Assembly (NCBI GenBank): GCA_947449255.1
Contig: CANFQX010000002.1
Location: 62,001-126,000 of the forward strand
Direction: 5' to 3'
Source: Pseudobdellovibrionaceae bacterium
GTDB lineage: Bacteria; Bdellovibrionota; Bdellovibrionia; Bdellovibrionales; Bdellovibrionaceae
Length of the DNA: 64,000 nt
A program made the position numbers and the translations under genes. This document shows positions 5,004 to 49,347 of the stretch, in pieces. Each line of letters begins with the position of its first letter. Position 1 is the stretch's first letter. The notes below the pieces were generated by a model, which was given only the letters and a program-made list of their open reading frames with translations, was not told where the DNA came from and did no database searches.

Positions 5004-5023
5004 AAAAAAAAGGCCCGAAGGCC
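5004..5023 (-). terminator. Intrinsic terminator of 6S RNA
   Basis: On the minus strand GGCC-TTCG-GGCC forms a UUCG tetraloop hairpin followed by eight T. This is a classical Rho-independent terminator. It lies directly behind the 6S RNA-like sequence and ends that transcript. Confidence 0.9.
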
Positions 5024-5181
5024 ACTCTGAAAAATAAACCTGTTTTAGCTAAGGTGGGTGACCATGATAACGACTTCAGGCTTCTCAGTACGAGCTGAGC
5101 TTGCACACCATCGTCAGGGAAAGTCCCCAATAATATGCTTGTAAGGTTTAATTTCGATGAGCTTTACGCCGCCGAACCTCT
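5004..5181 (-). ncRNA. ssrS: 6S RNA
   Basis: Regulatory RNA that mimics an open promoter and binds the housekeeping RNA polymerase. On the minus strand the apical stem reads CTCAG-loop-CTGAGAAGCCT (about 5095-5072). This matches the GCUCGG...CCGAGAAGCCU block of E. coli 6S RNA and is followed by a TCACCCACCTT segment like the TTCACCTT of that RNA. A closing stem pairs bases 5154-5144 with 5041-5031 (TAAACCT with AGGTTTA, one T-T mismatch). A sigma-70 promoter ends at 5189 and a terminator ends at 5004, giving about 178 nt, the normal 6S size. The identification is by eye. A covariance search with the 6S model should settle it. Confidence 0.8.
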
Positions 5182-5188
5182 GACATCC

Positions 5189-46635: not shown

Positions 46636-46651
46636 TGGCACGGTGTTTGCT
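46636..46651 (+). promoter_or_regulatory. Sigma-54 promoter (-24/-12)
   Basis: TGGCACG-GTGT-TTGCT matches the sigma-54 consensus, with GG and GC ten bases apart. The predicted start is about 46662, 36 bases before the GTG of the downstream gene. Confidence 0.8.
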
Positions 46652-46697
46652 TATAGATAAATTATCGGTTTATTTAACTTTATCTAAGGACAGTTGA

Positions 46698-47096
46698 GTG
46701 TTCAAAAACGCGTTGATAGCATTTTACATCTTGTTAGTTCTGGCTATATCAGCTGTTGCTCGCGCGGGTGTTTTTCCTAACAATGCGACTCAAGGTGATG
46801 AGCTTTCTGATTCATCAACTCAGAAGTTAGATTTTAAAACTCATGTGGGTTCAGTTTTGGTTTTGGAAGATGGGTCGATAGTATTGTCGGTCAATCAGCA
46901 AAATCATTTTATTCTACGATCACAAAGTGATCTCACATCTTATGTTGGTTCTAAGGTTATGATTAGTGGTATCGAGCTAGATCAACAAAGTTCTCTTCCT
47001 TATGAAAGTGATTCCAAGGGCCCCCTCCCTAGAGTTAACTCACAGGTTGATAACTTAGTTACTTTCTTCGTGCTTGGTATCTCTGAGGTTAGATAA
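46698..47096 (+). CDS. Small exported protein, unknown
   Basis: A protein of 132 residues with a signal peptide (about 1-23, YILLVLAISAVARAG). The mature part contains HVGSVLVLEDGSIVLSV, HFILRS and YVGSKVMISGIELD, a pattern that could form a small OB-like beta barrel. No family is recognised with confidence. The start is GTG with AAGGA upstream. It is expressed from a sigma-54 promoter and is followed by two C-rich-loop hairpins, so expression should depend on an enhancer-binding activator. Confidence 0.6.
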   Translation: MFKNALIAFYILLVLAISAVARAGVFPNNATQGDELSDSSTQKLDFKTHVGSVLVLEDGSIVLSVNQQNHFILRSQSDLTSYVGSKVMISGIELDQQSSLPYESDSKGPLPRVNSQVDNLVTFFVLGISEVR

Positions 47097-47112
47097 TAAC
47101 CTTTGTTCATTC

Positions 47113-47156
47113 AGTCTCAGCCCCAATCCCCTCCGTGGGCTGAGACTTTTCTTTTC
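47113..47156 (+). terminator. Hairpin 1 with CCCCTCC loop
   Basis: Stem AGTCTCAGCCC/GGGCTGAGACT (11 base pairs), loop CAATCCCCTCCGT, followed by T-rich sequence. It ends the transcript of the small exported protein and may have another role through its loop. Confidence 0.85.
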
Positions 47157-47161
47157 GTTCT

Positions 47162-47199
47162 AAAAAGGCCAGTGGACCCCCTCCATACTGGCCTTTTTC
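47162..47199. terminator. Hairpin 2 with CCCCTCC loop, also murA terminator
   Basis: Stem AGGCCAGT/ACTGGCCT, loop GGACCCCCTCCAT, flanked by A-rich and T-rich sequence on the two sides. It works in both directions and closes the murA transcript on the minus strand. Confidence 0.85.
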
Positions 47200-47222
47200 T
47201 TTTTAAAATCCCTCAAAAGCCA

Positions 47223-48473
47223 TTACGATCTTCTGATTTTTGCGCCTAAACTGGAAAGTTTATCTTCCAGTTTTTCATAGCCACGATCTAAGTGATAAAT
47301 GCGATTTACTACAGTTTCTCCGCTTGCGACTAGTCCTGCTAGGACCAAAGATGCACTAGCTCGCAAATCGGTTGCCATGACGGGGGCGCCAGTTAGTTGC
47401 CCAGGGACTCCGCGAACAACAGCCACTCTGGTCTTGGGAGTTATATCAGCACCTAGTCGACATAGCTCCGTAACATGCATAAAGCGGTTTTCAAATACTG
47501 TTTCTGAAATGACACTTGTACCGTGCGCAACGGCCATAAGAGCCATGAATTGCGCCTGCAAATCCGTTGGAAATAATGGGTGAGGAGCAGTTGTAATATC
47601 GACGGCCTCCCACTTCTCAGTTGGAAATACAGTCATTGTGTCTGAAGTTGTTTCAATTTTAAATCCAGACTCCCGAAGCTTAATAATTAAAGCTTCGAGA
47701 TGAGAAGGTATACAGTTCGTTACCGTTACCTGCCCCTTTGTAATCGCACCGGCAATAAGCAAAGTTCCCGCCTCAATTCGATCAGCCATTATAGTGTGCT
47801 CTGCAGGAAATAACTTACGAACACCTTCGATGCGAATAACACTCGTGCCATGTCCTGAAATTTTTGCGCCCATTTTGATAAGGTACTCTGCAAGGTCTAC
47901 AATTTCAGGTTCTTTCGCTGCATTTTCAAGGACTGTAATACCCTCTGCGAGAGTTGCAGCCATCATTACATTCTCAGTTCCACCTACGGTAACAGTTTCA
48001 AATAGGAATGTTCCACCTTGAAGTTTTTTTGTAGCAGCATGAACATAGCCCTCTCTTTGAGTTATCTCCGCACCTAAAGCTTTAAATCCTTCTAGATGTA
48101 AATCAATAGGACGACTTCCTATGGCGCAGCCACCTGGCTGAGAAACCACAGCCTCTCCATATTTCGCTAACATTGGCCCCATACAGAGGAAACTTGCTCG
48201 CATTTTTCTGACTAAATCATAAGAAGCTTCATAGGACTGAAGTGCACTTACGTTGACCTTAAATAGATCGCCGTCCCAACTTGTTTCGCAGCCCAAACTT
48301 TGTAAAAGCTCAGCTGTGGATTCTATATCTTTAAGCTTTGGTACATTCCTAAAGATATGTTGCCCTTCTGCTAACAAAGTCGAAAAAAGAATTGGCAATG
48401 CTGCGTTCTTCGCACCACTAGCTTTTACTGTTCCACGAAGTGGGCCACCGCCCGTAACAACCATTTTATCCAT
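47223..48473 (-). CDS. murA: UDP-N-acetylglucosamine 1-carboxyvinyltransferase
   Basis: First committed enzyme of peptidoglycan synthesis, 416 residues. It has the N-terminal GGGPLRGTVKASGAKNAALPI, the active-site Cys in QPGGCAIGSRPIDLH and the conserved Arg-Asn region near MVMAA (ENVMMAA). The ATG at 48473 overlaps the prmC stop by eight bases; a longer reading frame from 48533 is not supported. Fosfomycin resistance would be associated with loss of this Cys, which is present here. It is part of a prfA-prmC-murA run. Confidence 0.96.
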   Translation of the reverse strand: MDKMVVTGGGPLRGTVKASGAKNAALPILFSTLLAEGQHIFRNVPKLKDIESTAELLQSLGCETSWDGDLFKVNVSALQSYEASYDLVRKMRASFLCMGPMLAKYGEAVVSQPGGCAIGSRPIDLHLEGFKALGAEITQREGYVHAATKKLQGGTFLFETVTVGGTENVMMAATLAEGITVLENAAKEPEIVDLAEYLIKMGAKISGHGTSVIRIEGVRKLFPAEHTIMADRIEAGTLLIAGAITKGQVTVTNCIPSHLEALIIKLRESGFKIETTSDTMTVFPTEKWEAVDITTAPHPLFPTDLQAQFMALMAVAHGTSVISETVFENRFMHVTELCRLGADITPKTRVAVVRGVPGQLTGAPVMATDLRASASLVLAGLVASGETVVNRIYHLDRGYEKLEDKLSSLGAKIRRS

Positions 48474-49347
48474 GCTTAACCCCACAAATAATTCTATCGC
48501 GTCCTGAAAGATCCATAATAACACGGACTTCATTAAATACTTCTAGATTCTTATAATACTCAAGCATAACAGGTCCTTGAGTCATGCCCATTTCCATCAA
48601 CATAATTGCATTAGTAGACAAAAATCCTGAATAGGACTTTGACCATGATTTTAAAAAATGAAAACCTTGATCGTCAGCGAATAAAGCTGATGCAGGTTCA
48701 AATTTTTTAACATTCACCTCGATCAACGGATCACCAACTGCGATATATGGTGGATTTGAGATTAGAATATCTATTTTTTCCTGCTTAGTGAAAGCTTGAA
48801 ATTCAGACATGATCAAATCGTCATCTGCAGCACTCGCCAATAAAAAATGTGCTCTTTCCGACAGGCCCAATTCAACAGCATTTCGCTTTGCAACTTCAAT
48901 GGCCCCTGATGAAATGTCGACGGACATCAAACGAGCATTAGGGAAAATTTTTAAAAGACTTAATCCGATGCAACCTGATCCGCAGCCTAGATCAAGCAAT
49001 CCAAAATGATCCTCTTTGGCTTGAGCCCAATTCGAAACTTCCTCGACCAAATGCTCGGACTCAGGTCGTGGAATTAATGTCGCTGCATTCACCGCAAATC
49101 GATGACCAAAAAATTCACGATATCCCAATATATAAGCAACCGGTTCGCCAAGAGAACGCCTTCGAACCAATTCCCTTAGGACTGAAAGTTCTGCCTCTTG
49201 TAAGGGTTGATCAAACTTTAAGTAAAGTTGAATTCTCTCCATCTTCAAGGCATGAGCAAAAATAAGCTCTGCATCCAGACGAGGAGTCTCAAGTTTTTTG
49301 TCTTTGAAAAATATAATTGTTTTGTCGAGTACTTCTTTGAGTTTCAT
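48466..49347 (-). CDS. prmC: Peptide chain release factor glutamine methyltransferase
   Basis: SAM-dependent enzyme that methylates the GGQ glutamine of release factors, 293 residues. Motif I is LLDLGCGSGCIGLSLL, and the substrate-binding NPPY is in ILISNPPYIAVGD. LIPRPESEHLVEEV is the usual PrmC helix before motif I. It lies five bases downstream of prfA, its substrate gene, a classical pair. The stop overlaps the murA start. Confidence 0.95.
   Translation of the reverse strand: MKLKEVLDKTIIFFKDKKLETPRLDAELIFAHALKMERIQLYLKFDQPLQEAELSVLRELVRRRSLGEPVAYILGYREFFGHRFAVNAATLIPRPESEHLVEEVSNWAQAKEDHFGLLDLGCGSGCIGLSLLKIFPNARLMSVDISSGAIEVAKRNAVELGLSERAHFLLASAADDDLIMSEFQAFTKQEKIDILISNPPYIAVGDPLIEVNVKKFEPASALFADDQGFHFLKSWSKSYSGFLSTNAIMLMEMGMTQGPVMLEYYKNLEVFNEVRVIMDLSGRDRIICGVKHG

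Follow-up and report, generated by a model that had tools for sequence, protein, structure and literature searches.

In the 64,000-nucleotide stretch of Pseudobdellovibrionaceae DNA analysed here (hereafter 'the window'), the plus-strand locus between a TPR gene and murA is, on the comparison of related genomes, almost certainly a real conserved RNA element of predatory Bdellovibrio, and it has the look of a regulator of translation initiation, acting as a block, that has not been described before. The reading that we favour, which we think is probably, though far from assuredly, correct, is that of a dual-function RNA, driven by sigma-54 and independent of Hfq, whose repeated anti-Shine-Dalgarno (anti-SD) loops pair in trans with Shine-Dalgarno (SD) sequences of the form GGAGGGG. 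Below, we set out the evidence for the element, its distribution and its possible partners, and weigh the other explanations of its loops.

Architecture and conservation of the locus

A sigma-54 promoter, TGGCACggtgtTTGCT (TGGCAC-N5-TTGCT; written out in full, TGGCACGGTGTTTGCT), is a perfect match at positions 46636–46651 of the plus strand, and a transcript starting near 46662 and spanning approximately 46662–47205 is predicted. All 24 genus genomes have a match to this promoter, as do nearly all of the related loci in other families; the sigma-54 control of the RNA that the first-pass annotation had proposed is thereby supported. Its label 'sigma-54 gene' is wrong, because the gene in front of the hairpins (46698–47096) has a sigma-54 promoter and does not encode sigma-54. 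Just upstream of the −24 element, most genus genomes carry TGTCTCA, which is absent in the window; GTCTCA also recurs within the stem of hairpin B.

The gene itself is a plus-strand open reading frame (ORF) of 132 amino acids with a GTG start and without a Pfam family, and its third-position variation indicates that it is a real protein-coding gene. The N-terminus is conserved, (V)I(R/K)NALIAxYILVVLAISAVARAG, and resembles a signal peptide or a membrane helix, with the remainder variable between genera; a protein search over the genome contigs confirmed nothing. The convergent neighbour is murA (47223–48533, minus strand; EPSP_synthase family), and the order TPR (minus), RNA (plus), murA (minus) is kept in family f1 and in one genome (G092) of family f10. 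Elsewhere in the window, a 6S RNA (RF00013, 73 bits) lies at 5006–5183 on the minus strand.

Two hairpins at 47113–47199 had been read directly from the sequence as carrying 13-nt loops alike at nine of 13 positions on unrelated stems, a description that stands. Hairpin B (plus strand; sequence, folding and alignment) has an 11-bp stem (47113–47123/47137–47147) and the loop CAATCCCCTCCGT (47124–47136) with CCCCTCC at 47128–47134, and is followed directly on its 3′ side by the terminator-like TTTTCTTTT. Hairpin C (plus strand; sequence, folding and covariation) has a 12-bp stem (47162–47173/47187–47198) and the loop GGACCCCCTCCAT (47174–47186) with CCCCTCC at 47178–47184; having both an A-run and a T-run, it is terminator-like in both directions and common to the convergent murA. 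Folded together, the two reach −45.6 kcal/mol in the window sequence (z = −6.3), a value equalled by none of 200 shuffles. Both hairpins are thus present as described, but a third that also displays CCCCTCC, inside the ORF, had been overlooked.

This hairpin A (47010–47036, plus strand; stem 47010–47015/47031–47036, CCCCTCC at 47022–47028) is supported by covariation: in the genus alignment, 97% of the cells of its stem are paired and 24 changes are double-sided, with cells being counts of sequences rather than of independent events. None of 500 shuffles matches it on paired cells and covariation score, and partners slid out of register do far worse. In the window's genome, loop A reads GCCCCCUCC. 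Taken by itself, the window's own short hairpin A folds no better than shuffles, so that the case for it rests on comparison; in the full-length minimum-free-energy structure, the region around it pairs more widely. A further small plus-strand hairpin, AGGTTA GATAA TAACCT without a C-rich loop, covers the stop codon of the ORF (47086–47102), with 96.5% of such cells paired and three pairs changed on both sides in the 24-genome alignment.

By DNA similarity, the locus is present in 23 of 23 other genus genomes and in none of 16 genomes outside the genus. The alignment of all 24 genus genomes, window included, contains in every one of them exactly three CCCCTCC motifs at near-constant spacing, all invariant. 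Across the whole-transcript alignment, the only invariant runs of at least seven columns are these three motifs and both arms of hairpin B, and the motifs account for 21 invariant columns out of 21, compared with 83 of 227 overall (hypergeometric p ~1e-10). The stem of hairpin C covaries (five pairs with changes on both sides); hairpin B is near-invariant in stem and loop and therefore provides no covariation evidence. The first-pass annotation had held that stems kept while loops were lost would speak against its proposal; what is found is the reverse, with conserved loops and variable stems in A and C.

Selection on the RNA is also visible within the codons. The in-gene motif is read as CCC (Pro) and CTC (Leu), both invariant in 24 of 24 genomes, whereas elsewhere in the window CCC makes up 0.19 of Pro codons and CTC 0.10 of Leu codons. 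Synonymous variation is suppressed over approximately the last 50 codons and the 3′ region (46935–47206, plus strand), a stretch that we regard as under RNA-level constraint. Near-invariant codons, counted by hand from the genus alignment, make up 17 of 24 conserved columns in codons 81–132 versus five of 40 before them (Fisher p = 4e-6), and this concentration places the beginning of the RNA element in the last third of the gene. We consider this a clear case of selection on an RNA loop overriding codon choice inside a gene.

Relatives across the class and beyond

A covariance model of hairpins B and C and a profile of the protein were searched over 144 class genomes. The RNA model matches strongly throughout family f1 and less strongly outside it. 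In families f1, f10, f4 and f11 (the last from another order), the loci have a sigma-54 promoter followed by one to three CCCCTCC motifs, mostly borne on hairpins; stems differ widely between genera, and in other families this loop is carried by stems of unrelated sequence. At one locus of family f6 (G083), the motifs are present and no promoter match was found within the piece read. Most families have, on the same transcript, the gene of a small protein whose N-terminus is conserved; the protein ranges from about 40 to 230 residues, and only that N-terminus, IRNxLIxxYIxVVLxxSAxARA, persists. In three genomes (G079, G042, G050), the RNA scores ~1e-14 or better and the protein matches only the first 23–38 profile positions; conservation of the RNA reaches further than that of the protein, whose match is often confined to the N-terminus.

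The terminator pattern AAGC..CCCCTCC..GCTTTTT occurs in 34 of the 144 class genomes, mostly once in each, and its mirror control in none. In families f8, f3, f5 and f9, a sigma-54 promoter precedes a free-standing RNA of ~80–100 nt that consists of a 5′ CCCCUC stretch, a hairpin whose sequence is AUCGCCCCACGAU or closely similar, and a terminator loop with CCCCUCC, laid out as UACCCCUCUU, AUCGCCCCACGAU and terminator loop AUCCCCUCC. The two f8 copies read for ORFs (L115, L119) contain none of at least 25 codons; the f3 copy L117 has an open frame of 39 codons without the conserved N-terminus. The earlier proposal of a small RNA at the 3′ end of the transcript is supported in part: the same loop does occur on a short free-standing RNA elsewhere, but the element of the window is larger and starts within the coding sequence. 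The second constant hairpin of the free-standing RNAs (L183–L188) has the loop CCCCA, and several of these copies adjoin an M16-peptidase-like gene (named by eye).

When the free-standing pattern was scanned over 369 phylum genomes, no mirror-control match was found among the genomes listed. Two Bdellovibrionota bacterium records (L179, L182) have the same RNA as G037 and G081. A species collection yielded 21 matches, including similar promoter–RNA genes in Deltaproteobacteria/Syntrophobacteraceae metagenome-assembled genomes (L165, L166, L173). These have a sigma-54 promoter, the linker ACUCUUUCCUCCUC and the terminator loop CUAGCCCCUCCGG within ~75 nt, and their sequences possibly represent another anti-SD RNA family. 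Two Hyphomonadaceae (L178, L181) have a common terminator with the loop GGATCCCCTCCC near a putative sigma-54 promoter, adjoining the same EamA-like gene (named by eye). Some of the remaining matches in the collection are likely due to chance. Pattern matches in G025 and G352 were also taken as chance, there being no hairpin around the motif, and extra matches of the R1 model inside the genus genomes that were read were set aside as terminator look-alikes without CCCCTCC. G005 has 17 further ATCCCCTCC sites, and at none of those that were read and folded does the motif lie in a compact hairpin loop; within that genome, the ATCCCCTCC variant looks specific to the locus.

Proposed loop partners, candidate targets and rival explanations

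Among 70 motif sites from 30 sequences, 65 have a pyrimidine at position −1 and 47 an A at position −2, from which the loop consensus AYCCCCUCC follows. Its reverse complement, GGAGGGGRU, is an SD sequence. The 3′ tail of 16S rRNA in its general form, GGAUCACCUCCUU / AUCACCUCC, provides a comparison: with U at the Y position, the consensus is a single base away from AUCACCUCC, and some C loops (GGAUCCCCUCCUU) equal GGAUCACCUCCUU in 12 of 13 positions. The suggestion that the loops mimic an anti-SD sequence is accordingly strengthened by this near copy of the ribosomal tail.

Under the mechanism that we propose, a sigma-54-activated transcript would encode a small protein bearing a signal peptide, and its last coding third and 3′ region would fold as hairpins A, B and C, each showing AYCCCCUCC. 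Acting in trans, either whole or as a processed 3′ fragment, this RNA would pair through its loops with the GGAGGGG(R) SDs of other mRNAs and, with no need of Hfq, keep ribosomes from binding; repetition of the loop would lend redundancy and several binding sites per RNA. Anti-SD action in trans is the likely mode, although the target tests below came out as suggestive or negative. That the RNA is transcribed and processed, and that it acts in trans, as an inhibitor and not an activator, is our inference, as are its targets. Consistent with independence from Hfq, that protein (PF17209) was found in none of eight genomes by a search that was positive in five of 14 control genomes.

Candidate targets were sought as GGAGGGG-N3-9-ATG, for which nine genomes contain 190 sites versus 83 for the mirrored pattern; of 126 GGAGGGG sites that were read, 78 stand before a reading frame of 60 codons or more. 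Recurrent ortholog groups with GGAGGGG comprise a secreted subtilase in five genomes, a second subtilase in three, another secreted protein in five, a MotA/ExbB protein in four and an FlgN/FliT-like protein in three. The secreted subtilase genes L218, L233, L224, L245 and L332 keep the GGAGGGG SD across species, and Pfam places Peptidase_S8 on L218 and L224. The control GGAGGTG stands against its mirror at 20 versus 18 in G004 and at 45 versus 19 in G005, and this latter excess means that the GGAGGGG excess may partly reflect ordinary SD use; sharing of the exact SD between orthologs was found for GGAGGTG too (two pairs). By a simple home-made hydropathy rule for signal peptides, their share among GGAGGGG clusters lies above the window baseline (p = 0.009) and does not differ significantly from that of GGAGGTG clusters (22 of 49 versus seven of 23, p = 0.18). 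Predicted targets pair no better outside the 7-mer than decoy sites do (p = 0.50); behind the seed, purines are weakly preferred at GGAGGGG sites (p = 0.06). Since the GGAGGTG controls and the signal-peptide and pairing tests temper the signal, we present the GGAGGGG targets as proposals.

Four other explanations of the loops have to be weighed. It is unlikely, though worth keeping in view, that the C-rich hairpins are sites for an RNA-binding protein and titrate it, as CsrB-type RNAs do CsrA. Identical loops repeated on different stems fit the design of a protein sponge too, and many A and C loops have GGA ahead of the motif, where GGA–UCC closure, which in many loops of these types can hide part of the motif, can expose YCCCC. 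Against this, GGA is absent from the B loops of the genus and from many relatives, which makes CsrA an unlikely ligand; no candidate protein was identified, and the invariant part of the loop is complementary to SDs and nearly equal to the 16S tail.

A little less credible still is an element acting in cis, on termination (with B and C as tandem terminators), on the stability or decay of its own mRNA, or on translation of the small ORF. The U-rich runs after both B and C, the terminator-like form of C on the murA side and the covarying hairpin over the stop codon would suit such a role. Termination, however, requires stems and U-runs, not an invariant loop, and the loop is also present inside the coding sequence and is kept by the free-standing RNAs of other families. 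Nor does the ORF's own leader contain a conserved GGAGGGG in the 24 genus genomes, for which reason self-targeting of its SD was rejected.

A decoy role seems to us improbable, in which the loops would either stand in for the 16S 3′ end towards proteins that recognize it, for instance the GTPase Era, or titrate strong SDs on a global scale and so dampen translation. The close likeness of consensus and C loops to the general 16S tail is what such decoys would display, but the one base that differs from the tail is an invariant C, and this favours some partner distinct from the standard SD complement GGAGGUGAU. Finally, although a 7-mer common to two loops is not very improbable in the window alone, given many hairpins per genome, a chance similarity between two ordinary terminators has next to no standing, this and any terminator-only reading being ruled out by the invariance in 24 genomes, the third copy and the class-wide recurrence with zero mirror-control matches.

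Comparison with known systems

The likeness to alphaproteobacterial anti-SD RNAs that had been pointed out earlier extends to the architecture: the alpha-r14/NfeR1/cuckoo RNAs likewise have three hairpins with an identical anti-SD motif on differing stems, and NfeR1, which is Hfq-independent, represses ntrB via its loops (PMC10746234). The cuckoo RNA family goes back to Reinkensmeier and Giegerich (2015), as cited in PMC10746234. The two groups differ in motif (CCUCCUCCC in alpha-r14/cuckoo, which is absent from the loops here, versus AYCCCCUCC), in promoter (sigma-70 versus sigma-54) and in setting, alpha-r14/cuckoo being a small RNA and the present element an mRNA with one hairpin inside its coding sequence. 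No Rfam family reaches its gathering threshold at the locus, the cuckoo/ar14 model RF02344 included, and a single weak ar14 match in L092 sits elsewhere.

The CcsR RNAs have C-rich loops and are driven by an alternative sigma factor. With ccaF1/CcsR1–4 of Rhodobacter sphaeroides, the present locus has in common a transcript that gives rise to a small protein and, from its 3′ region, to regulatory RNAs (PMC8625941), although cleavage is here only proposed, and the DUF1127 protein of ccaF1 is replaced by an unrelated, signal-peptide-like ORF.

Pxr of Myxococcus xanthus is alike in its sigma-54 promoter, its three stem-loops and its occurrence in a predator without Hfq, and a single C-to-A change in a Pxr loop abolishes function (PMC5684412, PMC10217877). 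Pxr lies beside pxrR/pxrK with no ORF described, in contrast to the position between a TPR gene and murA here. On this description, a common origin with Pxr is conceivable.

For Bdellovibrio itself, PMC3627812, which calls itself the first report of non-coding RNAs in this genus, describes eight attack-phase RNAs of B. bacteriovorus HD100, including AP-specific RNAs and merRNA, and gives no targets. These too are regulatory RNAs of the same genus as the present RNA, but all eight of their HD100 positions lie away from the locus (67.6–68.2 kb in G005, taken as HD100). The Bdellovibrio literature searched, which did not extend to most subscription journals, describes nothing of this kind, and no regulatory RNA of the genus that acts in trans on known targets was found in it.

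More speculatively, and with doubts that outweigh our confidence, we suggest that the locus may belong to a sigma-54 RNA family spanning the class in Bdellovibrionota, mostly coding for a small conserved membrane or signal peptide and mimicking the 16S tail several times over, with one of the copies, in the genus of the window, written in its own codons. Such a family might switch off, in the predatory cycle, a regulon with GGAGGGG SDs comprising secreted proteases, other exported proteins, and flagellar and MotA/ExbB-type genes, and might have a common origin with Pxr and similar sigma-54 RNAs of other deltaproteobacterial groups. A sigma-54-controlled RNA conserved over much of the class, whose seed is defined and whose loop can be mutated, would open the predatory cycle to direct tests of post-transcriptional control.

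The multi-hairpin anti-SD design is known from Alphaproteobacteria, and the motif, the promoter, the placement in a coding sequence and the lineage are different here; the design was apparently reached independently.
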